Shown: one piece after another, positions 146-16,550 of the stretch
How positions within the stretch are numbered: the stretch's first letter is position 1
How the letters are laid out: the number at the start of each line of letters is the position of its first letter
From: Myxococcales bacterium
GTDB taxonomy: Bacteria; Myxococcota_A; Polyangia; Haliangiales; Haliangiaceae
DNA: 32,552 nucleotides
Direction: 5' to 3'
NCBI GenBank assembly: GCA_005779305.1
Contig: SXJR01000130.1
Location: 1 to 32,552, forward strand
The notes under the pieces: generated by a model
Told to the model about the DNA's origin: nothing
The model's input: the letters and a program-made list of their open reading frames with translations, nothing else
The model's database searches: none
Translations under genes and position numbers: made by a program

Positions 146-2911
146 CTACCGGTAGTCGGGCTCGACGATCTTGACCTGATCGAGCCCGGCCTCCTCGAAG
201 GAGCGCACCAGGGTGGCGCGATCGGCGAGGCAGACCACGATCTCGTTCTTGGGATCGAGCTCCTTGGCGATGAGCGACTTGACCTGGGCCGGAGACACCG
301 CCGCGATCTGCTTGATGAGCTGATCGTAGTAGTTGGGCGGCAGGTCGTACATCTCGATGGTGCCGAGCCGCGCCACCATCTCGCCGGAGACCGTCGACTG
401 ACCGAGCAGGTTCTCGATCAGCGCGCGACGCGCTCGCACGAAGTCGACGTCGAAGTTGACGCCCTGGCGCAGTGACTCGACGCCGTCGCGCATGGCCTTG
501 AGCGACTCGCCGGCGCGCGGTGCGTCGACGTTGCCGCCCATCTGATAGGCGGTCGGTCCGATCTGCGGGCTGCGGCCGGCGTAGACGCCGTAGGTCGAGC
601 CGAGCTTGAAGCGAAGATCGCCCATGCGCAGGGTCAGCATCTCGGCGAGCACGCGGCGCGCGGCCTCCTGGCCGTCGATGCCGTGGGGCGCCGGATAGGC
701 CATCGCCACTGTCATCTGCGGCAGCTCGTCGCCGACCACGCCGATGTACTCGGGCGCAGTGCGGGCGCGCTGCTCGGGCCCGATCGGCTCGTCGACGCGG
801 CCTCGCCCCCAGCCGCCGAAGGTGGAGCGGACCAGGCGCTCGACGTCGTCGATCGTGTACTTGCCGAAGTTGCCGGCGATGATCAGGGTCGCGTTGCCGG
901 CGGTGTAGTGGGCACGGCGGAAGTCCTCGAGCTTGTCCTTGCCGATCGCCATCACCGACTCGGGGGTGAGCAGGGCGTTCTTGGTGTACGGGTGATCGGC
1001 GCCGTAGATCGCGGTCAGGATCTGGCGCTGGAACTCCCAGTCCTGCTGGCGATCCTTGCGGGCGAAGGACTCCTTGTAGTTCTTCTGGAAGGCCTCGATG
1101 CCCTCCTGGCTGTACTCGCCGGCGGCGATGATGCGCTCGAGCGCGGTGACGATCTCCGACGTGTAGATGTCGAGACCACCGCTGACGAAGATGGTGTGGT
1201 CGCTGGTGGTGCCGCCGCGAGCGCCGATGCCGGCGCGGGCGAAGCGCTCGGCGTCCATGGGCAGGCGGCGGAACGAGGCGGAGAAGTCGGCCAGGCCGGG
1301 GATGCCGCCCGAGTGGACGTCGCCGACGTCGAAGATGAGGCGGGCCGAGACCAGCGGGAACGGCGTGTTGAGCGGCAAGAGCACCACCTTCATGCCGTTG
1401 CCCATCTCGAAGCGGCGAGTGGTCTCGAAGATCTTGAAGTCGGCAGCGACCTTGAGCGGACGCTTGGCCTCGCGCGGATCGACCTCGGGGATCTCCTTCT
1501 TGTCGTGCGACTTGGTCTCGAACTTGAGCTTCGATCGCTTGTCGCCGCGGATGCCGGTCTTGCTGGCCTTGAAGAGGATGACCTTGGCCTTGTCCCAGTC
1601 CATGTACTTCTTGATCTGGGCGGCGGCGTAGGGGCCGTCGAAGTCGACGTTGCGCTGCATCTCCTTGAGCAGGTAGACGTCCGACGAGTCGAACGAGGTC
1701 TCGTTGTCGAACTGGATCAGCTCACCCATCGTGTTGGTGCGGGCGGTGAGCGTCTCGAGGCCGCGGAGGAAGGCGGCCTTGCTGCGGGCCTTCTCCTCCT
1801 CGAGCTCGGCCCAGCTGCCACCGTCGAGGCCGCGGTGGGCTTGCTTGGCCGCCTTCTTGATGAACTCGAGGGCCTCGCCCGCCTTGTCCTGGCCCTTGAG
1901 CTCCACGATGATGCCGAACACAGGCGCCAGGTTGCCGCCGAGAATGATCGGCTCGACGCTGTAGCCGAACTCGTAGTCGTCGGCCTTGATGGCGGTGCGG
2001 AAGAAGGTCGAGCCCAGGCCGAAGTTGACGGCGCGGCCCTCGGGCGTGTTGGAGGCGGGCATCGGCCAGGCCACCACCAGGTAGGGGCGCTCGATGTCGA
2101 GATCGAACTCGGACCGGCCGCTGGTCACCGCCGTGACCGGCTGGACCTCGACCCGGGGCGCGCCCTTGATGGCCTCGAGAGGACCGAACCACTTTTTGAT
2201 CGACGCGGCCGCCTCGTTGGGATCGATGCCGCCGGCGACGATGACGGTGGCGCGATCGGGCGTGTAGAACTTCTTCATGAAGTCGCACGAGTCCTGCAGC
2301 GTGATCGTGGTGAGGTTGGCGTCGTCGCCGCCGATCATGCGTGAGTAGGCGTGGCCGTGGGGATAGACCTCGGCGAGGATCATGTCGGGGATGCGGCCCT
2401 CGGGGGTGCCGCCGCGCTGACGGATCTCGTTGCGGACGACCTCGCGCTCGCGCTGGAACTCGTCTTCGGTGATGGTCTGGCACCGGAAGTACATGCGCAT
2501 CGCCTCGATCTTGAGGAGCGCGTCGAGCTGCTCCCTGCGGCTCGCCATCATGTAGTGGGTGGTGTCCCAGTTGGTGTAGGCGTTGAAGAACGTGGTCAGC
2601 TGATTGATCGACGCCATCAGCGGCGCGGTCTCGGGACCGTCGGGGCGCTGCTGGAACATCAGGTGCTCGACCAGGTGCGCGATGCCGGCCTTGCCCGGCG
2701 GATCCTCGCGCGAGCCGACGTCGTAGCGCACGTCGACCTCGACCTGGGTCGTCGTCGCGTCGGGCATGATCACGAAGCGCAGGCCGTTGGGCAGCTTCGA
2801 GCGCAGCTCGGTGTACGTGAAACTGGTCTTCGGCGGCGGCGCGGGACAGGCGACAAGGAGCGCGATCGCCGCGAGCGCGAGGCCGAACGGGAGACGGCGG
2901 GCAACGTTCAT
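146..2911 (-). CDS. M16 family zinc peptidase, lipoprotein
   Basis: This 921-residue protein is an insulinase/pitrilysin-type metallopeptidase with two M16 halves in one chain. A signal peptide ends in a lipobox (L-V-A-C, Cys22), so it should be lipid-anchored on the periplasmic side. The first half carries the inverted zinc motif HLVEH at residues 79-83, with the third ligand probably Glu157 in EREVVRNE, so it should be active. The second half, from about residue 480, lacks HxxEH but keeps the R/Y-type signature STYGVYAGR near residue 790, as in the non-catalytic partner domain that helps hold the substrate. In myxobacteria such halves are often separate PqqL/YmxG-like genes, and here they are joined. 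The likely role is degrading short unfolded peptides in the periplasm. The ATG at 2911 is preferred because it supplies the signal peptide; no strong ribosome-binding site is visible. Confidence 0.93.
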   Translation of the reverse strand: MNVARRLPFGLALAAIALLVACPAPPPKTSFTYTELRSKLPNGLRFVIMPDATTTQVEVDVRYDVGSREDPPGKAGIAHLVEHLMFQQRPDGPETAPLMASINQLTTFFNAYTNWDTTHYMMASRREQLDALLKIEAMRMYFRCQTITEDEFQREREVVRNEIRQRGGTPEGRIPDMILAEVYPHGHAYSRMIGGDDANLTTITLQDSCDFMKKFYTPDRATVIVAGGIDPNEAAASIKKWFGPLEAIKGAPRVEVQPVTAVTSGRSEFDLDIERPYLVVAWPMPASNTPEGRAVNFGLGSTFFRTAIKADDYEFGYSVEPIILGGNLAPVFGIIVELKGQDKAGEALEFIKKAAKQAHRGLDGGSWAELEEEKARSKAAFLRGLETLTARTNTMGELIQFDNETSFDSSDVYLLKEMQRNVDFDGPYAAAQIKKYMDWDKAKVILFKASKTGIRGDKRSKLKFETKSHDKKEIPEVDPREAKRPLKVAADFKIFETTRRFEMGNGMKVVLLPLNTPFPLVSARLIFDVGDVHSGGIPGLADFSASFRRLPMDAERFARAGIGARGGTTSDHTIFVSGGLDIYTSEIVTALERIIAAGEYSQEGIEAFQKNYKESFARKDRQQDWEFQRQILTAIYGADHPYTKNALLTPESVMAIGKDKLEDFRRAHYTAGNATLIIAGNFGKYTIDDVERLVRSTFGGWGRGRVDEPIGPEQRARTAPEYIGVVGDELPQMTVAMAYPAPHGIDGQEAARRVLAEMLTLRMGDLRFKLGSTYGVYAGRSPQIGPTAYQMGGNVDAPRAGESLKAMRDGVESLRQGVNFDVDFVRARRALIENLLGQSTVSGEMVARLGTIEMYDLPPNYYDQLIKQIAAVSPAQVKSLIAKELDPKNEIVVCLADRATLVRSFEEAGLDQVKIVEPDYR

Positions 2912-3136
2912 GCGGCGGATCTTCTGCGAAGTCGCGGCGAATGCAAGGCCACCACGCCTGACTGCGTGCGAGTTGGGTGATGCGCGGGCGCCTCGGGCGG
3001 ACGACGCGTAAACATGCGAGACAATGCGGGAATGTTGGGCGGGCCCGGCTGGTTATTCATGGCCCGGGTGGGTGCAGGAAGCGGGCACGCGTCGCTGGCC
3101 AACCGGCATCGCGCGTTCGTGTCGAGGGCCACGAGC
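2912..3136. other. Gene-free leader upstream of the M16 gene
   Basis: I see no credible gene here. The short open frames have poor codon bias and run into the repeat array. The region should contain the promoter of the M16 peptidase gene on the minus strand, but no convincing -35/-10 pair was found. Confidence 0.4.
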
Positions 3137-3547
3137 GATCCGTCCGGCGATCGGACGGCGATCGGACGGGTGACACCCTTCTTCCCGGCGATCGGACGGG
3201 TGACACCCTTCATCGGGGATCCGTCCGGCGATCGGACGGGTGACACCCTTCATCGGGGATCCGTCCGGCGATCGGACCCGGCGATCGGACGGGTGACACC
3301 CTTCATCGGGGATCCGTCCGGCGATCGGACGGGTGACACCCTTCTCTGGGGTGTGGCCTGTGGCCTCCTGTGGCCTCCGGAGTGTCCGGCGATCGGACGG
3401 GTGATACCCTTCATCGGGGATACCCTTCATCGGGGGCCTCCGGAGTGTCCGGCGATCGGACGGGTGACACCCTTCATCGGGAGTGTCCGGCGATCGGACG
3501 GGTGACACCCTTCATCGGGGTGACACCCTTCATCGGGACACCCTTCT
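3137..3547 (+). repeat. REP-like repeat array 1 (8 full copies)
   Basis: Eight copies of the core GATCGGACGGGTGACACC, each followed by CTT and usually CATCGGGG, lie in the same orientation. The extended copies (from CGGC) start at 3156, 3186, 3226, 3279, 3319, 3387, 3450 and 3488; the copy at 3387 has GTGATACC instead of GTGACACC. Partial copies lie at 3266-3276, 3420-3435 and 3520-3547. Where the unit is complete it can form two small stems: GTCCG-N5-CGGAC and GGGTG-A-CACCC. Spacing is irregular (about 30-70 bp), and a TGGCCT-type mini-repeat interrupts it near 3353-3378. The array ends directly at the stop codon of the yjbQ-like gene. It belongs to the same family as the repeats at 7026-7137, 8008-8039 and 15223-15280. 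Confidence 0.93.
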
Positions 3548-3961
3548 TCACAGAATGAAGGTAACGGTCACCCGCCGACGATGCGGTGCAGTCCGGTGTT
3601 CCCAGAGATAGACGCCTTGCCAGGTCCCGAGGTCGAGGCGGCCCGCTGCGACCGGAATGAGCAATGAGCTCTGGGTCAAGACCGTACGGATGTGGGCGGG
3701 CATGTCGTCGTCACCCTCGGCGTCATGCTCGAACGTCGGATCACCATCCGGGACGAGACGCGCAAAGTATGCGTCCAGATCACGGCGCACCGATGGGTCG
3801 GCGTTTTCGCACAAGATGAGTGACGCGCTGGTGTGATGGCAGAAGACGTGTGCGAGGCCGTCGGTCGCCGGCGCGCCGTCGAGCGCAGACGCGACGCGCG
3901 CGGTGATGTCGTAGGTACCGCGTCCGCGAGTCTCGATCGGAAACGTGGTGCGCTGGGCCAT
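3548..3961 (-). CDS. yjbQ: YjbQ/UPF0047 family protein
   Basis: This is a 137-residue single-domain protein of the YjbQ (UPF0047) family. Members have a trimeric beta-fold with a cluster of conserved His/Asp/Glu residues, and some have weak thiamine-phosphate synthase activity; the physiological role is unsettled. The family signatures are all present: HHTSAS at residues 42-47, HD at 79-80, DDDMPAHI at 84-91 and GTWQGVYLWEHR at 112-123. Length is normal. The start is supported by GGGAG seven bases upstream of the ATG. It is divergent from the SulP gene with a 51-bp gap. Its stop codon abuts the last, partial unit of REP array 1, so the array occupies its 3' flank. Confidence 0.93.
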   Translation of the reverse strand: MAQRTTFPIETRGRGTYDITARVASALDGAPATDGLAHVFCHHTSASLILCENADPSVRRDLDAYFARLVPDGDPTFEHDAEGDDDMPAHIRTVLTQSSLLIPVAAGRLDLGTWQGVYLWEHRTAPHRRRVTVTFIL

Positions 3962-4012
3962 GGAGGAGCTCCCGGGACAAATTCGTGACTTGCGTGTGCC
4001 GCCGCGGTATCA
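3962..4012. promoter_or_regulatory. Divergent promoter region yjbQ / SulP
   Basis: Only 51 bp separate the start codons of two divergent genes, so both promoters, or at least their proximal parts, must lie here. A Shine-Dalgarno-like GGGAG (minus strand, 3969-3973) serves yjbQ. No sigma-70-type hexamers can be assigned with confidence. Confidence 0.4.
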
Positions 4013-5848
4013 GTGGAAGCGAGTGTGAAGCGTTACGTTGACGAGCTGACCGACGCCGTCAAGGCCCAGCTCGCGCTCGCGTACGGCGTGAAGGATCTGC
4101 TCGGTTTCGGGCTGCGCGCGCGTCTGCGCGAAGGCTACACCTTCACCGATTTCCGCGCCGATGCCATGGCCGGACTGGTGGTCGGAATCGTGGCGCTGCC
4201 GTTGTCGATGGCGCTGGCGACCGCCGTCGACGTTCCGCCGCAGCACGGACTCTACACGGCGATCATCGCCGGCATCATCGTCGCGCTTCTCGGCGGCACG
4301 CGGGCCCAGGTCACGGGGCCCACCGCCGCGTTCGTCGTGATCCTCATGCCGATCGTGCACGAGCACGGAATCGGCGGACTCCTCGTCGCCGGCTTCCTGG
4401 CCGGCGTGATCCTCGTGCTCATGGGGATGGCGCGATTCGGGCGCTTCATGAGTTTCGTACCACATCCGGTGACGACGGGATTCACCGCCGGGATCGCGCT
4501 CGTCATCGGGCTGCTCCAGCTCAAGGACGCGCTGGGCGTGACTCCAGTTGGCCGACCCGAGGGCGTCGTCGAGTACGTCCACGCGATGTGGGACGCGCGA
4601 CGCGCGGTCAACGGCTGGGACGTCGGGATCTGTGCAGTCACGCTCGGTATGCTTGTCGGCCTGCCCCGGATCGTGAAGCGGGTTCCAGCGCCACTGATGG
4701 CGTTGACGGCGGCCGCGGTGATGGCGCTGCTGCTCGATCACCTGGTGACCGAGTTCCATGTCGCCACCATTGGCTCGAAGTTCCAGGTCGAGATCGACGG
4801 GGAGACCATCCGCGGGATCCCGCCGCTACCCCCGATGCCGGTCTGGCCGTGGGAGCTGGGCGGAGCCAACGGCACCGAATTCACCCTCGATTTCGCGCTG
4901 GTCCGCGAGCTGATGCCGGCGGCGTTCGCCATCGCGATGCTGGGAGCGATCGAGTCGTTGATGGCGGCGGTGATCGCGGATGGGATGTCGGGCACCAAGC
5001 ACGATCCCAACAGCGAGCTGATCGCGCTCGGCGTGGCCAACATGATCGTCCCGTTCTTCGGGGGCATAGCCGCCACGGGCGCCCTGGCTCGCACCGCGAC
5101 CAACATCCGGGCCGGGGCACGCTCGCCGATCTCGGTGATCGTCCATTCGCTCTTCATCCTGGCGTCGACGATCGCGCTGGCTCCCCTGGTCGCCTACCTC
5201 CCGATGGCGGCGCTGGCGGCGTTGCTGCTGATCGTCGCCAAGAACATGAGCGAGGCGCGTCACTTCGTGCGCCTGATACGCATCGCGCCACGCAGTGACG
5301 TCATCGTGCTGCTCACGTGTTTCACGCTGACGGTGCTGTTCGACATGGTGATCGCCGTTTCGGTCGGCGTGATGCTGGCGGCGCTCCTGTTCATGAAGCG
5401 AATGAGCGTGCTGACCACGGTGACGCTCGACACCGGACTCGCCGAAAGAATCGAGATGCCGCCCGGCGTGCGCCTCTACGAGATCGCTGGCCCGATGTTC
5501 TTCGGCGCCGCCAACGTGGCGCTCGGTACGCTGGAGACTATCGGCAGCGAGGCGAAGGTGGTGATCCTCGACATGCGCCACGTGCCGGTCATCGACGCAA
5601 CCGGGTTGGTCGCGCTCGAGGGCATCGTCGACCGCCTCAAGCGATCGCAACGCAAGACCATCCTGTGCGGCCTGCAGCCGAGCGTCGCCGAGTCCTTCGA
5701 CAAGGCCGGCATCAAACGCGTCCCAGGACGGCTCGCTTTCGCGCCGGACGTCGACACGGCTATCAGCATGGCCATCGTGCACGAGGCCCGCGCTGTCCTG
5801 GCGACGCCCCCGACCGGCACGTCGACCCTGAACTCGTCCGGTCACTGA
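4013..5848 (+). CDS. SulP family anion/dicarboxylate transporter with STAS domain
   Basis: This 611-residue inner-membrane transporter belongs to the SLC26/SulP family. An N-terminal cytoplasmic stretch of about 45 residues leads into 12-14 hydrophobic segments (about 45-435), including the conserved TGPTAAFVVIL and PQHGLYTAIIAGI blocks. A cytoplasmic STAS domain follows (about 455-580) with VVILDMRHVPVIDATG, where a Thr occupies the position that is often a regulatory Ser. The N-terminal EGYTFTDFRAD stretch and the overall order look most like E. coli DauA (YchM), a C4-dicarboxylate transporter, but SulP proteins also carry sulfate, bicarbonate and other anions, so the substrate is open. The start is GTG 4013, with an alternative in-frame GTG at 4025. 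It converges on the RAYT gene with only 8 bp between them. Confidence 0.92.
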   Translation: MEASVKRYVDELTDAVKAQLALAYGVKDLLGFGLRARLREGYTFTDFRADAMAGLVVGIVALPLSMALATAVDVPPQHGLYTAIIAGIIVALLGGTRAQVTGPTAAFVVILMPIVHEHGIGGLLVAGFLAGVILVLMGMARFGRFMSFVPHPVTTGFTAGIALVIGLLQLKDALGVTPVGRPEGVVEYVHAMWDARRAVNGWDVGICAVTLGMLVGLPRIVKRVPAPLMALTAAAVMALLLDHLVTEFHVATIGSKFQVEIDGETIRGIPPLPPMPVWPWELGGANGTEFTLDFALVRELMPAAFAIAMLGAIESLMAAVIADGMSGTKHDPNSELIALGVANMIVPFFGGIAATGALARTATNIRAGARSPISVIVHSLFILASTIALAPLVAYLPMAALAALLLIVAKNMSEARHFVRLIRIAPRSDVIVLLTCFTLTVLFDMVIAVSVGVMLAALLFMKRMSVLTTVTLDTGLAERIEMPPGVRLYEIAGPMFFGAANVALGTLETIGSEAKVVILDMRHVPVIDATGLVALEGIVDRLKRSQRKTILCGLQPSVAESFDKAGIKRVPGRLAFAPDVDTAISMAIVHEARAVLATPPTGTSTLNSSGH

Positions 5849-5856
5849 CCCGAGGT

Positions 5857-6870
5857 CTATGTGACCAAGGCCGCCGGCGCGCGTGGGTTCACGTAGGGCT
5901 CCTGAAGCCACGGCGGTACGAACGTTCGACCGGGACGGATGTACCGCGCGGGACAGGGGAAGCTCCCGGGTGGGAAGGGCAAGACGTCGGAAGCCGGCGC
6001 GATCACGCTCATCGCGCCCGCCGCGAGCCGGGCGCGCACCGCGGTCGCGGCCGAGAAGAACGCGCTCTTGAAAGCGCGATAGGCCGTTCGAAACGCTCGG
6101 CGAGCTGTCGACGTGGCTGCATGACACAGCGGCGCGGGGCTCGACGCGGGATCCGGTGGGGACGCGTGCGGGTCCTGTGCAAGGACCCTGTCAGCGCCCA
6201 GCACGGGAGCCGTCCGATTCGCTTGGGCCTCAGCCACGATGTCTTCCACCAGCATCCGGGTACGCTCGGAAATCTGGTCGCGATCGAGGTCAGACCAGCA
6301 CGGCAGCGGCGACATCCGCAAGTCGTAGGTGGCCGTGTAGCTGGACGGATCCGTCATGTTGTTGCGGCGCCGGGTTCGTGTCTCCCGATCGCGATCGATC
6401 CAGACTCCCTGAAGCGACTCGCCGAGGAGCCAGGGTGTCGAGGTCGCACCAGGCCAATCCTCGGGGCGCTCGACCAGCCCCTCCTTCACGCCCTGGGAGA
6501 GGATGTAGCGAAGTCTCGCAACCAGGGATTCGTCATCGACGATCGGAATCGCCCGCGCTCGTCTTCCCCAGAAGGGTCCGCGCCATTTATGGATGCGCCC
6601 CATCTCACGAGCAACGTTGCTGTTCACGTATCCGATGAACGCCGACAGCTGCGCCCCATCCGTCGCTGACGCCATCATGTGGAAGTGGTTGGAGAGGAAC
6701 GCGAACGCGTACAGACTGACGTCCTGGTAGAGCAAGAGAGCGCGCGCGACAACGCCGAGAACCAGCTCACGGGCGACACCACCAGGTCGCAAGAGAAAGC
6801 GCTCCTGGATCGTTCGCGTCGTTACCTCGTATACCGTGCCGGGTGTGATCCAACGGAGAGGATGAGCCAT
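5857..6870 (-). mobile_element. RAYT / IS200-like Y1 transposase gene with C-terminal extension
   Basis: This codes for a 337-residue protein of the REP-associated tyrosine transposase group (Y1, HUH superfamily). The opening block PGTVYEVTTRT, the AFLSNHFHMM segment with the metal-binding His-x-His (residues 62-64), the WRGPFWGRR block and RYILSQGVKEGLV match the order of the family core (about residues 5-145). At the place where related proteins have RRY after the GPFW block this one reads RRA (Ala105); the next tyrosine is Tyr122 in RLRYILSQ. A further stretch of about 180 residues follows with no recognised domain, containing a basic helix (about 230-275) and a Pro-rich tail. I chose the ATG at 6870 because the family core begins there. 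The frame is open to an ATG at 6957, giving 366 residues. It is single, has no recognisable IS ends, and lies beside a hairpin and REP array 2. Confidence 0.85.
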
Positions 6871-6977
6871 GCACTCGCTCAGAGCACCGTCCGTGCCGAA
6901 CATCGCACCAGCGAATCCCACCAGGTAGCCGGCACCTGTCCGCATACCGGACGCCATGGCAACTCGAACAGTCGCGA

Positions 6978-7018
6978 GTGGGTAGTGTCCTGTCTCTTCA
7001 AACTAGGACACCACCCAC
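6978..7018. repeat. Imperfect inverted repeat upstream of the RAYT gene
   Basis: The arms GTGGGTAGTGTCCT (6978-6991) and AGGACACCACCCAC (7005-7018) are complementary at 13 of 14 positions around a 13-base loop. The right arm is the beginning of the direct repeat that carries the first REP unit of array 2. The position just outside the transposase gene resembles the subterminal hairpins recognised by Y1 transposases, but that role is an inference. Confidence 0.8.
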
Positions 7019-7177
7019 GAGTGTCCAGGAATCGGACGGGTGACACCTTGTTCGGTGGGACACCACCCACGAGTGTCCTCCAGGAATCGGACGGGTGACA
7101 CCTTGTTCGGTGTCCAGGAATCGGACGGGTGACACCTCATTCTGACACCTTGTTCGGGGGTGAGCCTTGTTCGGGGG
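7006..7177 (+). repeat. REP-like repeat array 2 (3 full copies)
   Basis: Three copies of the core ATCGGACGGGTGACACC lie at 7031-7047, 7086-7102 and 7120-7136. Here the core is preceded by CAGGA rather than CGGCG and is usually followed by TTGTTCGG. The first two sit in a 51/54-bp direct duplication (7006-7056 and 7058-7111) that begins GGACACCACCCACGAGTGTCC; the second copy has three extra bases. Each duplication can fold through GGACAC/GTGTCC. Two degenerate TTGTTCGGGGG tails follow to 7177, five bases before the stop codon of the large minus-strand gene. This is a sub-family distinct from array 1 but with the same core and orientation. Confidence 0.93.
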
Positions 7178-7182
7178 AAAGG

Positions 7183-10100
7183 TCACCGCGTTGGTGGGTC
7201 GGCCTCAAGCACCGAGGCGCCTGAAGTGTCGTGGAGGACGAGGAGAGCGAAGCGCTCGACGTTGTCGAGATCGGAGGTGGAGAGGGTTGCGTAGTCGAAG
7301 CGGCCGCGGAGGTCGGTGTAGCCGTCCTTGAAGAACTGGACGGCGCCGCCGCGCATGCGAGCGTAGGCCTTCACGTATGTGGACGGCAGAGAGGCACCGC
7401 TGGACGTCTGCCGTACCTGGAGCTGGCCGTAGGGGGCCATCACCGCCACTGCCAGGTCGTTGGCAAAATGCGTGACCGCCCCTCGAAGAGAACCGCTGAC
7501 CGCGTCGATCACCAGGTTGGACTTGGCCATCTCGTCCGGGAGCCTTACGACCGTGCGCCCGCCCCCATCCAGGACGACCTCGAGCGCTGCCCCGGGCGCG
7601 ATGAACGAGAAGCGATCGCTGGCCGCCCCCAGGAACGGCTGACGCGAGAACAGGAGTTCCACATCCATGCGATAGAAACGCACGGTCGCCCGTTCCAGGT
7701 GCACGTGGGTCAGCACAACCTGCCCCTGCTCGACGGCCACCGCCAGCGTCGGTTGCCTGGCCGCCAGCTGATCCATGGTCCGCTCGCGATGGTCGCGGGC
7801 GCCCACGTCGGCGCCGGCGCCGACCGCGCCCGCAGAACCCGCGACCTCGTCGAGCATGGCCACGAGTGCCCCGAACCGATGCCGCCACCGATCCACCGGA
7901 TGCCCGACATGCGGCACCGAAAGCGCACGCGCCGTCGCCAGGTCGCCCCGGGCGGCGGCCGCATACGCAGACAAGTACGCGAATTGCAGTGCGGCTACCC
8001 CCGGTTGTAGGGTGTCACCCGTCCGATCTTCGGACACTCCCGCGACCTTGCTCAGCGCCCGCGTCGCGTCGTCGGGCCGATCCATCGTGAACAGGTAGTG
8101 GGCCGCCGCCAGCCAATCGTCGGCGCCCAGCGCGCGGCTGGACGCCAGCCTCTCGAGGAATGACTTCCACTGCGCCGCGAGGCCGTCGTTGAGGACGGTG
8201 CGCCGCTCCCCCAGCCGATGCGCGCGCGCGTTCACCAGCGGCGCATACTCGAGATGCTGGTAGAGGCCGCGCGCCACCGGTTCGAGCGGCACCAGCCCGG
8301 CGTCGAGCTCGGGTCCGGCCTCGGCCAGGAACTCGTCTTGATGAGCCAACCACTCCGCGGCCCGCGCCCGATCGCCGTGCACCAGCGCGTACGCCCACAG
8401 GGTCTCATCGTGCACGTGACGCGCCGCCAGCGCCGCCAGGATGCGGTCGAACGCGGGCCGCTCACGCATCCGCCACGCCACCCGCGACAGATCGATGCGC
8501 CCCAGGTTGTGGGTGCCGATGAACGCCACCACCTCGTCCAGTGTGCCGCGCTGCGAGACATGTGACCACGACGCCGTGTCGACGGCCGTCGGCGCCCGCA
8601 CCACCGCGAGCTCACGCCCCGCCGCCGCGGCCACAAGCTCGTCGACCCGCGTGATCTGCGCGCCGTAGTGCGCGAACGTCCCCGCCGCCGGGAAGTAGAA
8701 TGCGTACTCGATCGACGTCGTCGCGTATGGCGCCAGCTGCACGCGATGTGTCCGCGTCGCCAGCCCGCCGTTGACCGGCAGCGCGCCTGCCGGGATCTGG
8801 AGCAACACCGCCAGGCGCTGCATGCGGCTGGTCGGGTTGGTGACGACCACCTGGCACTGGTAGATGACCGCCACCAGCATCTCGCCGGTGACGTACTTCT
8901 CGCGCTGCTCGGCGCCGTCCCACTCCCAGCGGTCGTCGGCGCGGAAGTAGCTCTGACCGATCAGCACCTGGCCGAGCGGCGGACCCGCAATCTCGTCGAG
9001 CGCCGCCACCGCGGCCAGCGCGTGCGACCCTGCCGTCACGCTGGCGCCGGCGCCACGCGCGACGATGGCGTGCGCCGCCGCCGCGAACGGCAGATCGATC
9101 ACCGCCAGCGCGCCCACGCAGGCCGCGAAGCCCTCGCCGATCCCGGCCACGTGCGGGGACAGGAACGGTCCGTCGCCATGACCAGCCAGGTCGCGCCACA
9201 ACCGCGCCACCGGCACGAGGTCCGCGCCGGCGTCATCGACGCGGGTGTGCCACCAGTTGTGCTCGGCCCACTCCTGGGTCTTGTCAGCCCCGCGGTAGAG
9301 CGGCGCCGCGCTCTCGCGCGTGGCCAGATCGGCCCGCAGACGGTCGGCGGCGAAGTCGTCGCCACCAACACCGAACCCGCCGGCCCCGGCGCCCCCCATC
9401 GGGCTCGACATCGACGGCGGCGGCGCCTGCGGCTTCATCGCGCGCTTGGCCTTCTTGGGCGCCTCGTCCTTCTTGGTCGCCTCGTCGCCTTCCTGGAGAT
9501 CGTCGTCGAGATACGCATCCGCAGACTCGCCGGCCGACATCGACAGGGACTCCGACGGCGACTCGGCCACGATCGTCGTCATGTCGGTGCCGTCGCCGGA
9601 CAGCTTGCCGCCAGCCAGGAACGCGTCGACCAGACGATCGTCGCCCTCGGGATCGGGCGCGATCAGATCGACGGCATCGGCCAGCGAGCGTGCGATCGCC
9701 GACCGCGCCTCGGGCATCCGCCGGGCCAGGAGCGCACGCTCGAGCGCGTTGAGTCGCGCGAAGCGCCACGACGCCAGGTACGCCGAGAGGTCATCGCCCA
9801 GGAGCCAGTGATCGACGAACGTCTTGTGTAGCTTGCTGGCCAGGTACGGCCGCAGCGCCTCGTCGAACAGGGGTCGGTCCTTGAAGAACACGAACAGCGC
9901 CAGCTCGTGGCAGGCGTGCTTCGAGTAGACGGTCAGCTTCTCGGCCCGCGACATCGTCGCCCACCGCGGCAGGAAGCTCCACGTCGCGAGATCGCTGTCG
10001 CCCGAGATCGCACACAGCGCGCGATAGAGCTTGTCGACGGTATCGACCAGCTCGACCCGAGTGGTGGCGCGATCGACGACCGCGAGCGTCGCGCCCGCGG

Positions 10101-13100
10101 CCAGGCCTTGCAGGCGCCGATCTTCGCGCAAATGACGCTCGGCCGGCAGCGCGGCGGCGAGGCGAAGATCGCGCACGGTCAGCTCACGCGGCGAGAGCGG
10201 CACCAGCCGCACCGACGCGCTCGACGGATCGACGCAGACCACGCGCACCAGCGTGGCCTCGCCCAGCGCCTGGCGCGGCACCCGCACGCGCCCGGCGGCG
10301 TCGGGCCGCAGGTTGGCCAGCAGCACCGGCGCAACCTCCAGAAAATCGAACGTCGCGAACGCGGGATCCATCGGCTCCGCAGCCTGCCGCTCGAAGGACG
10401 CCGCTCGTGCCGCCGGCGCCGGTGCCGGCGCACCGCGCGGCGGCGAGCCCGCCCAGGCGCCCTCGGCGCGCGCGGTCTGCACCGACGTCGACGTGGTGCG
10501 TAGCGCCCACGGGTTGAGCAGCACGCTCGGCTTGTCGAGCAAGAGCCCAGGCCGGCGCGGTGCGTGCTGGCGATCGAGCACGTAGCGGTACTCGTCCCCG
10601 ATGTCGCGCCCCGACACGTAGTGAGTCTCGGCCGGGGACTGGCGGCGCACCTGTGATCCGCGCAAGCGCCCTGCCAGGTCCGCCGACCACGCCGGAGCCG
10701 GCCACAGCGACGCGGCCAGCACGTGCACGCGCGTGTTCGCCGTCGCCCCGAGCACGGTGATATCGAGCGACTCCGGTCCGGCGACCACGGCCGCCAGCGC
10801 CGGCGCCGGCGGCCGCAACTCCACCAGCGCGCGCGGCAACGTCGCCCACCCCGCCGCCATCGGCGTCGCCGCCGGGACGACGACCACGCTCACCGGCTGC
10901 TGCCCGCGCACCACGACCGCGTGCTCGCCCGGCGGCAACCCGCCGATGCGCAGCACGCCGGCTGCGCCATCGAGCCGCGCCCGTGCCGCGTGATCGTGCG
11001 CTGGCACGCCTCCCCGCGACTCGACGACCCGCCAGTCGGGACCGTCGCCACCGCGATCGTCGACGGCCACCGGCACCACGATCTCGTCGCCTTCGCGGGT
11101 CAGCACCACGGGCGAGAACGCCGGCACGGCCGGCGCGAGATCGAAGTCGACGGCGAGTCCGGTGGTCGTGGTCGCGCTCAGGCCGAGCACGCCCGGGAGC
11201 GCTCCCAGCGCGATGCGACCCCGCTCGTCGGTGGCCAGCGTCACCTCCCACAGGTACGTGACCGCGCGCAAGCGAAGGCGCAGCGACACCGCGCGGCCGG
11301 CGCGCGGCTCGCCGCTCTTGCCGAGGATCGCGAGGGCAAAGCCGTCGGCGTCGCGGGACAGGTACAGCGCCTCGGTGGCGAGCGCTGCGTGCATCGTGCC
11401 GATCGACATCGCGACCTCGTCGCGCAGCTCCTGCGTGTCCTGGCGCGAGACCACGCGCACGCGCCCGGTCACGACCACCTGCAAGGACGCGGCGTTTTCG
11501 GGTACGGCGATCGACACCTCGCTCTCGGCGCCGTCGACGAGCGCGAGGGGTTGCCGGCGCGTCGCCGGTACGCCGGCGCGATCGGTGACGGTGATCTCGA
11601 CGTGCGGCTCCTCGAGGAGCGTCACGGTCGTCGGAGCGCCGCCCACGGTGAGATCGGCGCGGACCAACGCGACGACGTCGCGGCCGGGCACCAGCGCCTG
11701 GCGATCGAGCAGCACCGCGGTGTCGAGGTCGTACGACTCCTCGGGCAGATGGACGGTGGTCACCACCGCCAGGTCGCCGTCGACGATGAGGGCCGGCGTG
11801 GCGCCGCTGCGGGTCGAAAACGGCAGCGTGATCACGCCGTCCTCGGCGCGCGGTCGGTACTCGCGCCCGCCCATCCACACGCTGGCCCCGGGTGCGTGCC
11901 GGCCGGCCTCGTCGAGGATGGTGAGCGCGAGCCCCGCCGGGCTCGGCCGCGGCGTGTAGCGCAGGTCGCCCTTGCGCACCAGCGCGCGGCTGGCCTTGCC
12001 GCCGGCGATCACCTCCACCATGTACGTCCCCGCTCGATCGCACGCGTCGAGCTCGAGGCGCGTCCGCACCCGGTGCAACGCCGGCGCGGTCCACGGCCGC
12101 CGCTCCTCCCATCCAGCCGCGAGGCCGTCGAGATCGAGGGTGGTGTCGACGTCGAGGCTGCGAGCGTGGAAGTGCGCCGCGACGTTGACGCGGAATACGC
12201 GCACGCGCAGGGAGCCGGCGTTCTTGATGTCGAGCTCCAGCGCGACCCGCTGGTCGCGGGCGAACAGGCGCGGGTTGGTGGGCGCGAACTCGAGATCGAC
12301 GCGATCGCGCAGCGCACCGACCGCGGCCGGCCCGAGGACGCCGCTCCAACGGTCGACGTCGGCGTCGCCGGCGAGCAGGCGGGTCTCGGCGCGTAGCTGC
12401 TCGAGCCACGACGCCTCGACGTGATCGGCGAAGGCGGCGCCGTCCTCGCCGCGCAGGAAGTGGGCGAGGTACGTGCGCACCAGCGCCTCGTCGCTGGCGA
12501 CCGCGGTCAGCCCGGTCACCCGCGAGAAGTCGTGATCGAGCGCGGCGATGATCCCGTGCTCCAGCTTCTCCAGCCACGTCACCCGCACGTAGGTGCCGCG
12601 GCGAGGCAGCGCCAGGTAGGCGATCAGGCGTGCCCGATCGAAGGTGCCGGCGCGCAGATCGCACGCCAGCCGATGGTGGAGCACATGGGCCTTGAGTGAG
12701 TTGAACGACGGCGGCAGCGACGCGACGGCGGTCCAGAGCTCGTCGAGATAGGCGACGCGCGCGGCGAGATCGAGGTCCCAGTCGACGTGGATGGGCGGGC
12801 GCAGGCGAGTCAGCCTCGCCTCCACCCACGCCCCGTGCTGGCGCAGCGCCGGGCGCAGGCGGGCTAGCTCGTCGAGTTCGGCCGCGGTGAGCCGGGCGTG
12901 GATGGCGACGGTGCCGAAGCCCTTCGAGCTCTTCTCCCCGAGGTCAGCGGCGATCAACGCGACCAGGCCGGCGAGGCCGGTGCGGTCGAGCCTCTCGAGG
13001 AGCAGGCGAGTGTGGTGGGGGTCGAGCGGGCGACCGACCAGCCGCACCAGACCGGCCGGGGTCAGCTCGTCGAGGCCGCGGCCACGCGAGAGCGCCAGAT

Positions 13101-13467
13101 CGAGTAGCTTGCTCTCGTCGAGGACGGCGTTGTCGAAGCGGGACGAGTGGCGCGCCGCGGCGGCCTCGATCTCGGGCTCGTGGTGCAGCGTGGCTCCGGT
13201 CTCGTCGCGCAGCGTGTCGGCGACCGCGACGAGATCGCCGCCGGCGCGCAGGAGCAACTGTCGGCGCTCGAGCCGCGCGCGCAGCGCGGTATCGCCATGG
13301 CGCGAGCGCCAGCGCGCCAGCACCGCGTCGACCTCGGAGAGCGCGCCGACGTGCTGCAGGTGCACCGCACGCCAGTAGTCGTGTTCCTCGGTGCCGGCGA
13401 CCAGGCCGGCGAGCGCAGCCGCGCGATCGTCGCCGAGCGCCAGCCCCTCGAGCTGCTCGATGTCCAT
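7183..13467 (-). CDS. Giant protein of unknown function (2,094 aa), MG-like beta domains
   Basis: I do not recognise a characterised homologue. The chosen start is ATG 13467 (MDIEQLEGLAL). The frame is open for another 1 kb upstream, but that part is Arg/His-rich and lies opposite the extensin-like gene, so it is spurious. There is no signal peptide or membrane segment. Residues 1-450 look mainly helical. About 450-950 contains repeated beta-rich stretches such as QRVALELDIKNAGSLRVRVFRV that recall the macroglobulin (MG) domains of alpha-2-macroglobulins. A Lys/Pro/Gly-rich linker (about 1315-1370) precedes a block with TQEWAEHNWWH. The C-terminus (about 1680-2094) has helical TPR-like repeats and ends in a beta module with GRFDYATLSTSDLDNVERFALLVL. 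I think similar uncharacterised giants occur in Planctomycetes and Myxococcota. Residues 1809-1820 are encoded by a REP repeat. No thioester motif (CGEQ) is visible. It is divergent from the LAS peptidase gene with an 81-bp gap. Confidence 0.8.
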   Translation of the reverse strand: MDIEQLEGLALGDDRAAALAGLVAGTEEHDYWRAVHLQHVGALSEVDAVLARWRSRHGDTALRARLERRQLLLRAGGDLVAVADTLRDETGATLHHEPEIEAAAARHSSRFDNAVLDESKLLDLALSRGRGLDELTPAGLVRLVGRPLDPHHTRLLLERLDRTGLAGLVALIAADLGEKSSKGFGTVAIHARLTAAELDELARLRPALRQHGAWVEARLTRLRPPIHVDWDLDLAARVAYLDELWTAVASLPPSFNSLKAHVLHHRLACDLRAGTFDRARLIAYLALPRRGTYVRVTWLEKLEHGIIAALDHDFSRVTGLTAVASDEALVRTYLAHFLRGEDGAAFADHVEASWLEQLRAETRLLAGDADVDRWSGVLGPAAVGALRDRVDLEFAPTNPRLFARDQRVALELDIKNAGSLRVRVFRVNVAAHFHARSLDVDTTLDLDGLAAGWEERRPWTAPALHRVRTRLELDACDRAGTYMVEVIAGGKASRALVRKGDLRYTPRPSPAGLALTILDEAGRHAPGASVWMGGREYRPRAEDGVITLPFSTRSGATPALIVDGDLAVVTTVHLPEESYDLDTAVLLDRQALVPGRDVVALVRADLTVGGAPTTVTLLEEPHVEITVTDRAGVPATRRQPLALVDGAESEVSIAVPENAASLQVVVTGRVRVVSRQDTQELRDEVAMSIGTMHAALATEALYLSRDADGFALAILGKSGEPRAGRAVSLRLRLRAVTYLWEVTLATDERGRIALGALPGVLGLSATTTTGLAVDFDLAPAVPAFSPVVLTREGDEIVVPVAVDDRGGDGPDWRVVESRGGVPAHDHAARARLDGAAGVLRIGGLPPGEHAVVVRGQQPVSVVVVPAATPMAAGWATLPRALVELRPPAPALAAVVAGPESLDITVLGATANTRVHVLAASLWPAPAWSADLAGRLRGSQVRRQSPAETHYVSGRDIGDEYRYVLDRQHAPRRPGLLLDKPSVLLNPWALRTTSTSVQTARAEGAWAGSPPRGAPAPAPAARAASFERQAAEPMDPAFATFDFLEVAPVLLANLRPDAAGRVRVPRQALGEATLVRVVCVDPSSASVRLVPLSPRELTVRDLRLAAALPAERHLREDRRLQGLAAGATLAVVDRATTRVELVDTVDKLYRALCAISGDSDLATWSFLPRWATMSRAEKLTVYSKHACHELALFVFFKDRPLFDEALRPYLASKLHKTFVDHWLLGDDLSAYLASWRFARLNALERALLARRMPEARSAIARSLADAVDLIAPDPEGDDRLVDAFLAGGKLSGDGTDMTTIVAESPSESLSMSAGESADAYLDDDLQEGDEATKKDEAPKKAKRAMKPQAPPPSMSSPMGGAGAGGFGVGGDDFAADRLRADLATRESAAPLYRGADKTQEWAEHNWWHTRVDDAGADLVPVARLWRDLAGHGDGPFLSPHVAGIGEGFAACVGALAVIDLPFAAAAHAIVARGAGASVTAGSHALAAVAALDEIAGPPLGQVLIGQSYFRADDRWEWDGAEQREKYVTGEMLVAVIYQCQVVVTNPTSRMQRLAVLLQIPAGALPVNGGLATRTHRVQLAPYATTSIEYAFYFPAAGTFAHYGAQITRVDELVAAAAGRELAVVRAPTAVDTASWSHVSQRGTLDEVVAFIGTHNLGRIDLSRVAWRMRERPAFDRILAALAARHVHDETLWAYALVHGDRARAAEWLAHQDEFLAEAGPELDAGLVPLEPVARGLYQHLEYAPLVNARAHRLGERRTVLNDGLAAQWKSFLERLASSRALGADDWLAAAHYLFTMDRPDDATRALSKVAGVSEDRTGDTLQPGVAALQFAYLSAYAAAARGDLATARALSVPHVGHPVDRWRHRFGALVAMLDEVAGSAGAVGAGADVGARDHRERTMDQLAARQPTLAVAVEQGQVVLTHVHLERATVRFYRMDVELLFSRQPFLGAASDRFSFIAPGAALEVVLDGGGRTVVRLPDEMAKSNLVIDAVSGSLRGAVTHFANDLAVAVMAPYGQLQVRQTSSGASLPSTYVKAYARMRGGAVQFFKDGYTDLRGRFDYATLSTSDLDNVERFALLVLHDTSGASVLEADPPTR
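8008..8039 (-). repeat. REP copy inside the giant reading frame
   Basis: A complete copy (minus strand: GTGTCCG-AAGAT-CGGAC followed by GGGTGACACC; core at 8011-8027) lies inside the coding sequence. It is in frame and reads SEDRTGDTLQP, the same peptide frame (DRTGDTL) that arrays 1 and 2 would give if translated. The outer GTGTC/GACAC pairing and the inner GTCCG/CGGAC stem are intact. It lies between two predicted helices near the C-terminal helical repeats, where an insertion could be tolerated. Confidence 0.9.
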
Positions 13468-13548
13468 GGTGGCAGCGTAATCCAAGGCATCTCGGCGAGT
13501 TGCGGGAGTGGCGTCGCAACGCCGGGTCGCGGTAGTAAGGTCACCCTG

Positions 13549-14277
13549 GTGTTGACCTCGACATCGCGCGTGGCGCTGATCACGGCGGTCGCGACGCTGG
13601 CGGCGGCGCTGGTCGCGACGACAGCCGAGGCGCGCACGCGGCGCAAGAAGAAGCAGCGCGCGCCGGTCACGCAGCCGCGGCGCAACAACATGCCGGTGGG
13701 TTGGACCTGGCCGCCGTCGAAGGCGATGGTGGCGGTGGGCAAGGCCTGCACCGGCGAGCTCGATGCGCTGGGCATCGCGTGGAAGGCGGCGCCGCGAGAG
13801 CGCAAGGTCGCCACGCCGATCACGTTGCCGGTGATGGAGCTGGGCGGGGTCAAGCTGGTCTCGGTCTACCGGCGCGGTCCGCACGTGATGGACTGCCACC
13901 TCGTCCTCGTGCTGGCGCGCCACCTTCCCGCGCTGCACGCGATCGGGGTGCGCGAGCTGAACTTCTCGCGCATCCACGCGTACACCAACGTGCGCGTCAA
14001 CGGCGGCGAGAAGAGGGCGCTGTCGCGGCACGCGCTGGGGCTGGCCATCGACATCCGCAGCTTCGTCGACCAGGACGGGCGCAAGGCCATCGTGCTCGAC
14101 GACTATCCGCTCGGCGACAAGCTCCTCCTCGACGCTGAGCAGACGCTGACCGACGGCGGCGGCTTCCGGACCATCCTTACGCCGCGCAACGACCCCAAGA
14201 GCCACGACGATCACTTCCACCTCGAGGTGCGGGTCGACTACAGCAAAGCGCCGGCGCCCAGGAAGCCGGCCACGTGA
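13549..14277 (+). CDS. Exported LAS-type (extensin-like C-terminal) metallopeptidase
   Basis: This 242-residue protein has an N-terminal signal peptide ending near TTAEA|R (residue 28) and a basic stretch, then an extensin-like C-terminal domain (DUF882/VanY-like LAS fold). The zinc-site pattern is complete: His161-x6-Asp168 in HALGLAID and the His222-x-His224 pair in SHDDHFH. Two Cys (67 and 116) could form a disulfide. LAS enzymes cut peptidoglycan stem peptides, so a periplasmic cell-wall DD- or LD-peptidase is the likely role. I chose GTG 13549 (alternative TTG 13552) because it gives a standard signal peptide; the longer open frame upstream overlaps the giant gene and is not coding. Its stop overlaps the start of the M28 gene by four bases (GTGA), so the two are probably co-translated. 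Confidence 0.87.
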   Translation: MLTSTSRVALITAVATLAAALVATTAEARTRRKKKQRAPVTQPRRNNMPVGWTWPPSKAMVAVGKACTGELDALGIAWKAAPRERKVATPITLPVMELGGVKLVSVYRRGPHVMDCHLVLVLARHLPALHAIGVRELNFSRIHAYTNVRVNGGEKRALSRHALGLAIDIRSFVDQDGRKAIVLDDYPLGDKLLLDAEQTLTDGGGFRTILTPRNDPKSHDDHFHLEVRVDYSKAPAPRKPAT

Positions 14278-15218
14278 GGCGGATGGCGCAGATCGTGGCG
14301 GCGGTGGCGAGCGCTGCGCTGGCTGCGTGCGCGGGCGACGACGGCGCGGGTGACGGAGACGGTGGCGGCGACGACGGCGACGGTGGGATCGACGCCATCG
14401 ACGCCACCATGCTCGACGGCGACGGCGGCGGGGGCACGTGCGTGGCGCCGGTGGCCGAGCCGGCGTGGATGGCGGCGTATCTGTCCACAACGGTGGAGCA
14501 ACTGGCGGCGTCGCCGCGGGCCACGGTGGCGCAGCGCAACGCGGCGCGCGGATATCTGATGTCGCAACTGACGTCGCTCGGGTTCGCGTCGCGGATCGAG
14601 ACCTACGGCACAGGCGGCAACGTGGTCGCCGAGTTGCCGGCGACGATGGCGACCGCAGCCTGGCTCGTCCTCGGCGCGCACTTCGACACCGTGAGCGGCA
14701 GCCCAGGGGCCAACGACAACGCGACCGGTGTGGCCATGGTGCTGGCGGCTGCGCGCGGGCTGGCCGGCGTGTCGTGCCGGGACACGAACGTTGCCTTCGT
14801 GTTCTTCGATCAGGAGGAGATCGGGCTGGTCGGCTCGGCGGCGTACGCGGCGGCGGCGCGGGCGGCGGGCACCAACATCATCGCGGCCCACACCATCGAC
14901 CAGGCGGGCTGGGACATGGACGACGACCTGCGCTTCGAGATCGAGCGGCCGTCGGCGGGCTTGTTCGCGCAGTACCAGGCAGCAGCGACCGCGGTGGGCG
15001 CGCAAGTGGTCCAGACCCAGATCAGCACCACCGATCACCAGTCCTTCCGTTCGGAGGGATTTCCAGCCGTCGGCCTGACCGAGGAATACGTCTCCGGCGA
15101 CACCACGCCCCACTACCACCAACCCGGCGACGTCGCGTCCACCGTGGACGCCCCCTACCACCGCGTCGCCGCGCGCTTGATCACGTACTTGCTCGCGCGG
15201 GAGCTCGGCGCCCCGTAA
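14274..15218 (+). CDS. M28 family zinc aminopeptidase, lipoprotein
   Basis: This 314-residue secreted lipoprotein has lipobox L-A-A-C at Cys19, then a 35-residue Asp/Gly-rich linker typical of myxobacterial surface lipoproteins, then an M28 catalytic domain. All five metal ligands are visible: His136 and Asp138 (GAHFDT), Asp148 (GANDNATG), Glu181/Glu182 (FDQEEIG; general base and ligand), Asp209 (HTIDQAGWD) and His282 in TPHYHQPGD. It should be an exopeptidase removing N-terminal residues in the periplasm or at the surface. The GTG start overlaps the preceding stop (GTGA). The upstream wall hydrolase and this peptidase may act together on cell-wall or prey peptides; that link is inference from the operon only. 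A REP palindrome starts at its stop codon. Confidence 0.92.
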   Translation: MRRMAQIVAAVASAALAACAGDDGAGDGDGGGDDGDGGIDAIDATMLDGDGGGGTCVAPVAEPAWMAAYLSTTVEQLAASPRATVAQRNAARGYLMSQLTSLGFASRIETYGTGGNVVAELPATMATAAWLVLGAHFDTVSGSPGANDNATGVAMVLAAARGLAGVSCRDTNVAFVFFDQEEIGLVGSAAYAAAARAAGTNIIAAHTIDQAGWDMDDDLRFEIERPSAGLFAQYQAAATAVGAQVVQTQISTTDHQSFRSEGFPAVGLTEEYVSGDTTPHYHQPGDVASTVDAPYHRVAARLITYLLARELGAP

Positions 15219-15284
15219 GAAGGGGTGTCACCCGTCCGATCTCCGGCCACGCGTGGCCGGAGATCGGACGGGTGACACCCTTTC
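15219..15284. repeat. Head-to-head REP pair: 58-bp perfect palindrome
   Basis: Bases 15223-15280 form a perfect palindrome with 29-bp arms and no loop, centred on ACG|CGT between 15251 and 15252. It extends to 15219-15284 with one mismatch. Each arm contains the family core ATCGGACGGGTGACACC (one on each strand), joined through CCGGCCACG. The arrangement is that of a bacterial interspersed mosaic element. It sits directly after the M28 stop codon and about 65 bp before the methyltransferase start. In RNA it would make a very stable hairpin followed by TTTCC, so it may also stop or stabilise the upstream transcript. Confidence 0.95.
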
Positions 15285-15346
15285 CGGACACCGCTTGCGA
15301 AGGGATACTGAACGGATTGTCAGAGGTGGCTGGCAAGGTCGCTGAC

Positions 15347-16090
15347 GTGAGTGAGTCTAGAGCGCGGTTTCAGGTGGACAACATGGATGCGGTCGCGTGG
15401 CTACGAACGTTGCCGGGTGGGTCGATCGATCTGATGGTGACGGACCCGCCGTACGAGTCGCTCGAGAAGCATCGGGCGATCGGGACGACGACGAGGCTGA
15501 AGCAGAGCAAGGCGTCGAGCAATGCGTGGTTCTCGATCTTTCCCAACACGCGGTTTCCCGAGCTGTTTGCCGAGGCGTACCGGGTGCTCAAGAAGGATGC
15601 GCACTTCTACCTGTACTGCGATCCGGAGACGATGTTCGTCGCCAAGCCGCTGGCCGAGGAAGCCGGGTTCAAGTTCTGGAAGCCGCTGATCTGGGACAAG
15701 GTCCAGATCGGCATGGGCTATCACTATCGCGCTCGCTACGAGTGCATCCTCTTCTTCGAGAAGGGAAAGCGGAAGCTGAGCGATCTCGGCGTCGCCGACG
15801 TCATCACGGCCAAGCGGGTCCGCAACGGGTATCCCGCCGAGAAGCCGGTCGAGGTCAGCTCCGTGCTGATCCAGCAGAGCTCGGAACCCGGCGAGCTCGT
15901 CGTCGATCCGTTCATGGGCTCGGGCTCGGTCGGAGTGGCCGCAGTCGCCAGCGGGCGCCACTTCCGCGGCAACGATCTGTGCGCCGAGGCGGTGGAGATC
16001 ACACACAAGCGCCTGCTCGCCACGGGTGCGATCGCGGCGCCGCCGTCGCGCCCCGCGTCGGCCGCAGGACAGCTCGGACTCGCGATGTGA
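15347..16090 (+). CDS. DNA methyltransferase, beta class (probably N6-adenine)
   Basis: This 247-residue enzyme has the motif order of beta-class amino-methyltransferases: catalytic motif IV DPPY at residues 33-36 first, the presumed target-recognition region in the middle (about 40-160), then YPAEKP (162-167) and the S-adenosylmethionine motif I DPFMGSGS (187-194). DPPY favours N6-adenine over N4-cytosine, where SPPY is usual. The family uses SAM to methylate a specific duplex DNA site. GTG 15347, with AAGG nine bases upstream, gives a start just before the first beta-strand. TTG 15317 and GTG 15326 are in-frame alternatives. Its stop overlaps the next gene by four bases, and that gene is a probable nuclease, so the pair looks like a Type II restriction-modification unit. 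Confidence 0.9.
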   Translation: MSESRARFQVDNMDAVAWLRTLPGGSIDLMVTDPPYESLEKHRAIGTTTRLKQSKASSNAWFSIFPNTRFPELFAEAYRVLKKDAHFYLYCDPETMFVAKPLAEEAGFKFWKPLIWDKVQIGMGYHYRARYECILFFEKGKRKLSDLGVADVITAKRVRNGYPAEKPVEVSSVLIQQSSEPGELVVDPFMGSGSVGVAAVASGRHFRGNDLCAEAVEITHKRLLATGAIAAPPSRPASAAGQLGLAM

Positions 16091-16542: not shown

Positions 16543-16550
16543 TCACCGCG

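Follow-up and report, generated by a model that had tools for sequence, protein, structure and literature searches.

A near-private repeat family tied to a recently inserted RAYT-like gene in a member of the Haliangiaceae

How REP-associated tyrosine transposases (RAYTs) spread repetitive extragenic palindromic (REP) sequences, and why these proteins persist without transposon-like behaviour, are open questions. A contig of 32,552 nucleotides from a Myxococcales bacterium of the family Haliangiaceae (SXJR01000130.1; contig C43, the whole of which is hereafter the window) raises them in a compact form, as a short repeat with the core ATCGGACGGGTGACACC recurs there in clusters around a gene for a RAYT-like transposase of the Y1/HUH type. 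The window belongs to an 8.08-Mb genome of 611 contigs that is 75% complete. What is this repeat, and what is the gene to it? Our analysis finds a real, near-private repeat family tied to a recently inserted RAYT-like gene. We think it probable that the repeat is a mobile element of ~26–30 bp, served by the transposase encoded at 5857–6957 and spread mainly in cis through nicking of single-stranded DNA.

Within the window the core has 13 exact copies and one copy with a single change (3392), where shuffled sequences would yield 0.18 matches even with three mismatches allowed; a fifteenth match at 17929, carrying two mismatches, is at chance level. Eight copies lie on the plus strand at 3161–3509, three on the plus strand at 7031–7136 and one on the minus strand at 8011–8027, and those at 15224–15240 (minus) and 15263–15279 (plus) form an inverted pair (Table 1). 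An initial annotation of this DNA had described 14 full copies, one of them with a single change, at four loci, and was correct in count, positions and orientation; the 5′-truncated copies after the first array (3520–3552) were absent from it. The consensus element, GTGTCCG-NN-GATCGGACGGGTGACACC, spans ~26–30 bp. Its proposed two-hairpin fold holds for four of the five monomers folded, in which GTCCG-N5-CGGAC adjoins a short GGGT/ACCC hairpin, and fails for the fifth, which folds otherwise. The GTCCG/CGGAC arms are present, the five monomers have fold z scores of −0.97 to −2.96, and the 62-nt stretch of the inverted pair folds at −39.5 kcal/mol (z −12.7). A search of 2800–16000 against Rfam at gathering scores gave no match.

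The family extends well beyond the window. The source genome holds 24 exact copies of the 17-mer on 8 contigs, 11 of them outside the window on 7 contigs, and 28 exact copies of the 15-base core on nine contigs, with 1 more at one mismatch; two mismatches add 38 further matches, versus 15 in a reversed control that has no exact match. These 28 cores bear out the claim of a dispersed family, and the core does occur on other contigs, its absence there having been named in advance as grounds against such a family. Inverted pairs occupy 2 of the 12 genome sites, the remainder being monomers and direct tandem arrays, and the single copies at six sites have no common flanks. GT[AG]G stands directly before the left arm in 3 of 28 copies (as GTGGCC) and is missing from the other 25, so the statement that the GTAG foot of enteric REPs is lacking holds in the sense that there is no consistent foot.

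Across 30 genomes of the family (labelled G below), the exact 15-base core occurs 28 times in the source genome, once in G026 and not at all in the other 28, so that the repeat family is nearly private to the source species as far as sampled. Homologues of the RAYT-like gene (E ≤ 1e-20) are present in 11 of these genomes and missing from 19. The core is not equally common without such a gene, the second ground that had been named against the family, as the 19 genomes without a homologue have 0 exact matches. Copy number does not track the presence of the gene, as the initial annotation had supposed it might, because 10 of the 11 homologue-bearing genomes hold 0 or 1 core. The rule that the core follows RAYT presence was accordingly rejected: homologue-bearing genomes are mostly without it, and several homologues carry different repeats of their own. 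The suggestion that the repeat forms a separate family is supported. The word GTGGGTGRCACC has 10–242 copies in G000, G023, G026, G027, G028 and G029; it has 0 in G024 and 2 in G025, where the genes use other words, and 2, 2 and 6 in G007, G008 and G016. The 19 genomes without a homologue hold 0–10 copies (10 in G001, 2 in its reversed control), and the lowest count with the gene type (10, in G026) thus equals the highest without it.

Comparison with congeners allows the gene and some of the repeats to be placed as insertions. The SulP and P0005 gene matches lie 24–89 bp apart in G028, G023, G027 and G024 and ~1.3 kb apart in the window; they are 75 bp apart in G025, with SulP inverted, and a RAYT query found no match in the SulP–P0005 stretches of these five congeners (G026 was left out, its P0005 match lying at a contig end). 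This comparison shows that the source lineage gained the RAYT gene, together with the array upstream of it, between SulP and P0005. At the place of the 8010–8039 copy, ten residues are missing in the P0005 orthologues of G028, G027, G025 and G024, and the G023 protein is diverged and two residues longer than those four. The element inserts as a unit of ~30 bp, as seen at this site. The intergenic stretch of the first array measures 557 bp in the window and 106 bp in G028, where no core was seen.

Table 1. Coordinates of the repeats, the RAYT-like gene and the inserted block in the window
Feature	Position	Strand	Remarks
Array of eight full cores (7 exact, 1 single-change)	3156..3512	+	3′ flank CTTCATCGGG in most units, locus-specific
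Two 5′-truncated units (gtgacacc; acacc)	3520..3552	+	10-nt flank each, second flank altered
RAYT-like Y1/HUH transposase gene, 366 aa	5857..6957	-	NF047646, Y1_Tnp, 4er8, alignment; conserved start probably 6870
Block of RAYT gene and 7031-7136 array	5857..7185	.	Missing from the SulP–P0005 interval of five congeners; approximate right edge
Array of three full copies upstream of RAYT gene	7031..7136	+	Flank TTGTTCGGTG in 2 of 3; then truncated pieces to ~7180
Single copy, in frame within P0005 (long gene, minus strand)	8010..8039	-	10 aa absent in four orthologues
Inverted copy pair, 58-bp palindrome	15223..15280	.	Directly after M28 peptidase stop codon

The window-family repeat is concentrated near its gene. 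When copies less than 500 bp apart were merged into sites and those lying no more than 10 kb from a homologue were counted genome-wide, 4 of the 12 window-family sites fell within that distance (P = 9.5e-9). Other homologues are surrounded by repeats as well: GTGGGTGACACC is the commonest local word type near the C30 gene of the source genome and in G023 and G029, GTGGGTGGCACC has 68 copies (up to one mismatch) in 19 kb near the G027 gene, and GATCGGATGGGG, GGGTAGCAACCTC and GGACGGCTGCGACCC are local words near the homologues of G024, G025 and G016. The windows of G008, G028, G007, several G029 genes and G025_C27 showed no clear related repeat family. The locality test covered the source genome and G023, G024, G025 and G026, with G027, G029, G016 and G028 left out. 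Its cleaner instances use a word from the source genome's C30, and gave 10 of 35 sites in G023 (P = 1.2e-18) and 2 of 4 in G026 (P = 1.3e-5; 6 of 9 with a degenerate word designed after G027 was seen). The counts were 6 of 26 for the C30 family in the source genome (P = 6.8e-11), 3 of 12 in G024 (P = 2.1e-6) and 23 of 24 in G025 (P = 8e-41), where sites in duplicated blocks are not independent; in an 8.9-Mb genome, with a word found near the gene, 41 of 42 copies lie within 10 kb of it. By eye, a supported clade (C30, G023, G026, G027, G028) goes with words of the GTGGGTG[AG]CACC type, yet G029_C59, outside that clade, has the same type. The top two words listed per window reach copy numbers of up to 40 in RAYT windows versus 6 in controls. 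Of 20 windows from other families judged by eye, 9 show a recurring 12-mer no farther than ~800 bp from the gene, and for the other 11 a repeated 12-mer is listed farther off or not at all.

The arrays themselves carry a trace of how they may have grown. Their units share a flank of ~10 nt 3′ of the core and then diverge, and the flank differs from array to array. For 39 pairs of successive units, taken from arrays of the source genome (five), G016 (three) and G029 (the right one), identity after the final ACC is 66–100% at offsets 1–10, 46% at 11 and 17–48% beyond, while eight copies from seven non-array sites show 75% at offset 1 and 17–57% after it. Unit 5′ starts vary, down to the last few core bases. 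The common 3′ end can be read, on sequence grounds, as the product of repeated restarts from a nick.

The gene beside the second array is of the RAYT type, as originally proposed: HUH and Tyr motifs, a match to NF047646 (REP-associated tyrosine transposase) and the structural match described below all bear on this. The NF047646 match of the window protein (3.3e-15, 56.2 bits) lies below the cut-off of 80, as does its match to Pfam Y1_Tnp (0.0012) below the cut-off there; at E ≤ 0.01 NF047646 is matched by 19 of 19 homologues, and Y1_Tnp at 0.01 by 9 of the 19 aligned. An AlphaFold model of the window protein built on these 19 homologues (pLDDT 87) has as its top solved Foldseek structure 4er8, a TnpA-REP bound to a REP hairpin (E 2.2e-5), with further matches that include the IS200/IS605 structures 2xm3 and 2vhg. 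The HUH motif reads SNHFH, the presumed catalytic Tyr lies within RYILSQG, and a C-terminal part extends beyond the 4er8-like core. In the alignment the Tyr and the second His are present in 19 of 19 and the first His in 18 of 19, and the residues after the Tyr read, by eye, Y---[QH]G in all 19 and not Y---NP. Loss of the catalytic Tyr was considered and rejected, the published Y---NP signature and the alignment together placing it in RYILSQG.

A tree of 36 sequences places the window protein in a supported group of 21 (100/98), outside which stand five paralogues from G000, G007 and G024, four with Y---NP and that of G007 with Y---NA by eye. The clade and its nearest relatives (E ≤ 1e-40) occur in at least 34 of 317 genomes of the class, with seven candidates scored per genome, and a plasmid search found no relative of the window protein. 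Three more source-genome paralogues (L055, L056, L057) have SNHHHT at the HUH position and Y---NP by eye. The RAYT-like gene of G025 is itself amplified in blocks of 1.2–3.7 kb (95–98% identity between closest copies), with 10 matches, several paired within 16 kb and some truncated, and a tandem repeat of 15-bp units (L112:6353-6745) lies ~4 kb from a RAYT-like gene in that genome.

To the observed insertions and proximity we add a presumed catalytic course, in which the window protein would be what moves the repeat. The protein would bind the repeat hairpin on single-stranded DNA, nick ~10 nt 3′ of the core and become attached to the 5′ end. Renewed extension of the free 3′ end, begun at upstream points that vary, could then produce tandem units that agree at the 3′ end and are ragged at the 5′ end; alternatively, the freed strand might be joined to another single-stranded site nearby.

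A number of observations weigh against this account. Of three sister-genome units, one folded per genome, those of G025 and G016 have no stable hairpin (z 0.79 and 0.53) and that of G024 is stable (z −3.2). The locality count of 4 of 12 is partly circular, the window having been picked for its copies, and so are those for the C30 family of the source genome, G024 and G025, whose words were taken from near the gene. Counts of 13-mers in at least 3 clusters fail to tell RAYT windows (45; 23 nonzero, median 1) apart from controls (20; 13 nonzero, median 3.5), GC-rich words swamping this statistic. The 3′ end is not uniform: the left G029 array (5 pairs, period 54), outside the 39 pairs above, is without a sharp end, units agree to ~+14 in G025 (22 pairs) and ~+13–15 in G024 (43 pairs), and no sharp end is seen in G027 (45 pairs) or G023 (7 pairs), with offsets only roughly comparable since anchors differ between families. 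Arrays could also come from plain slippage, for instance of a polymerase past a hairpin. Finally, the C30 paralogue (L058:10055-11035) has lost the first HUH His (NQLH) despite a similar local cloud; its syntenic orthologues in four species retain that residue.

The alternative that survives best, though we hold it rather unlikely, is that the repeats are not mobile DNA but sites to which the RAYT-like protein or some other factor binds, selected near the gene for regulation or replication. The surroundings of the C30-type gene, which occupies the same syntenic place in five species, speak for it. Isolated 12-nt sites there are more conserved than their 40-nt flanks in every one of five references (0.919/0.755, 0.964/0.752, 0.875/0.782, 0.836/0.774 and 0.920/0.785, from 168 ungapped comparisons with 35 gapped ones dropped, run in both directions so that P values are too small), and random 12-mers of like GC score 0.778. 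Four of 33 site groups are common to all five species; of the 23 groups that can be aligned in at least two species, 14 are shared. The site conservation, together with genome-wide word counts of 0 and 2 in two congeners whose genes use other words, favours upkeep tied to the gene; coding constraint, however, may hold some of the shared sites, for example C30 16135. In the window family two loop bases are near-random across 13 copies (12 sites, 8010–8039 included) and adjacent bases agree in 11–12 of 13, with the 15-base core itself fixed by the search; a single loop would be expected from a recent burst. Against the binding-site explanation, this family is nearly private, with 0–1 copies in congeners, one of its copies is a 30-bp insertion relative to four orthologues, and its arrays resemble amplification and not the evolution of sites.

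Less likely again is passive local duplication, in which hairpin DNA is copied by replication slippage and recombination and the RAYT gene is a mere neighbour. Many copies are indeed direct tandems with common flanks, blocks of 1.2–3.7 kb in G025 are duplicated at 95–98% identity between closest copies, and units end at different points in different families, with no sharp end in two. Slippage sits poorly, however, with single copies at six sites that have no common flanks, with the 30-bp insertion at 8010, with homologue clouds built on different words in several genomes, and with a +10 end common to arrays of three genomes. A classical REP/REPIN family with a group 2 or 3 RAYT is very improbable, for although the fold match to 4er8 and the NF047646 matches of all 19 homologues point that way, GT[AG]G precedes the left arm in so few copies, inverted pairs are so rare, Y---[QH]G replaces Y---NP in 19 of 19, the window protein stays under the NF047646 cut-off, and the G025 and G016 units lack a stable hairpin.

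The system resembles RAYT and TIRYT but misses several membership features of each, and is best called a variant of RAYT/TIRYT. Our comparisons draw on parts of the cited papers. As in the TIRYT/TIRtron system (Di Nocera and colleagues 2013; PMC3733652), a RAYT-like gene without GTAG REPs goes with a linked repeat that has short inverted ends (here GTGTC/GACAC), the family is moderately abundant and forms clusters and dimers, and the published motif of the terminal inverted repeats (TIRs), GGGGWSAS, resembles GGGTGAC here. The published TIRs lie on both gene flanks, whereas here the array is on the 5′ side only, the ends of the SulP (5848) and RAYT (5857) genes standing 8 bp apart with no array between, and copies here crowd over ~10 kb. 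With the REPIN/RAYT system of Pseudomonas (Bertels and Rainey 2011; PMC3116915) it has in common one repeat group per RAYT; in one Pseudomonas a tandem REPIN cluster lies beside each RAYT, and since the cluster units carry flanks, the architecture is related. REPINs, however, are palindromes in pairs, dispersed in hundreds of copies, whereas this family consists mostly of monomers and direct tandems, few in number and crowded near the gene, with a 10-nt 3′ flank; the inverted pair fails as the unit, for pairs are found at 2 of 12 sites and a monomer alone was inserted at 8010.

Among transposases, TnpA-Y1 subclass 2.1 is long, has a C-terminal domain and is prevalent in epsilon-, beta- and delta-proteobacteria, and automatic and manual searches found no REPs for it, according to the part of that study consulted (Quentin and colleagues 2018; PMC6006769). 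The window protein likewise joins an HUH/Y1 core to a C-terminal extension, but class 2 has Y---NP where this clade has Y---[QH]G: of the RAYT/TnpA-REP class 2 features, the Y1 HUH fold, the HUH and the Tyr are present, and Y---NP and a score above the NF047646 cut-off are not. With IS200/IS605 (IS608, ISDra2) it shares the fold and, as in class 1, a Gln at Tyr+4; unlike there, the protein is longer and the repeats far outnumber the gene in the source genome. TnpA-REP is reported to cleave on the 5′ or the 3′ side of REPs, at CT or at CT and CA (PMC8266576, in part); judged by eye, the +10 ends of the present arrays follow no such rule. Predicted REPs are listed for the myxobacterium Pyxidicoccus fallax in a study that, in the part consulted, saw REPs unclustered in the genome under analysis there (PMC12306157). 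No published account of repeats crowding around RAYTs on a kilobase scale was found in sources seen in part, most subscription journals lying outside the search; a search for REP-associated tyrosine transposases in Myxococc- found no literature, and one for myxobacterial repetitive extragenic palindromic sequences gave nothing on topic, judged by title.

Two neighbouring stretches deserve mention. The intergenic stretch between the M16 and UPF0047 genes (2998–3554) is 106 bp long in G028 and 0.6 to 2.4 kb in the source genome, G023 and G027, and is perhaps a hot spot. A block at 15219–16550 encodes an N6/N4 DNA methylase together with a PD-(D/E)XK nuclease, likely a restriction-modification pair, and has the inverted repeat pair at its left edge; G023 lacks the block between the corresponding neighbours and G024 lacks it at this place, and the five congener stretches fetched contain no match to either gene.

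The value of this case lies in a RAYT-like gene that is present in one species and missing at the same site in five congeners, in insertions that can be placed by comparison, and in arrays whose common end may mark where the DNA is cut. Repeats are here connected with a RAYT clade that has a C-terminal extension, whereas the part consulted of an earlier study (PMC6006769) describes a subclass with such a domain as having none. Spread over short range would help to explain the low number of such elements. A broader and distinctly doubtful proposition is that the whole Y---[QH]G HUH/Y1 clade acts in cis, each member nicking the repeat that belongs to it at a fixed spacing 3′ of the core (~10 nt for the window family) and building and keeping a neighbourhood of sites of ~10–20 kb; in the vertically inherited version the sites would be under selection, and the cloud would be a functional regional mark and not junk. 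If true, this clade would represent a self-limited, locally confined mobile system.

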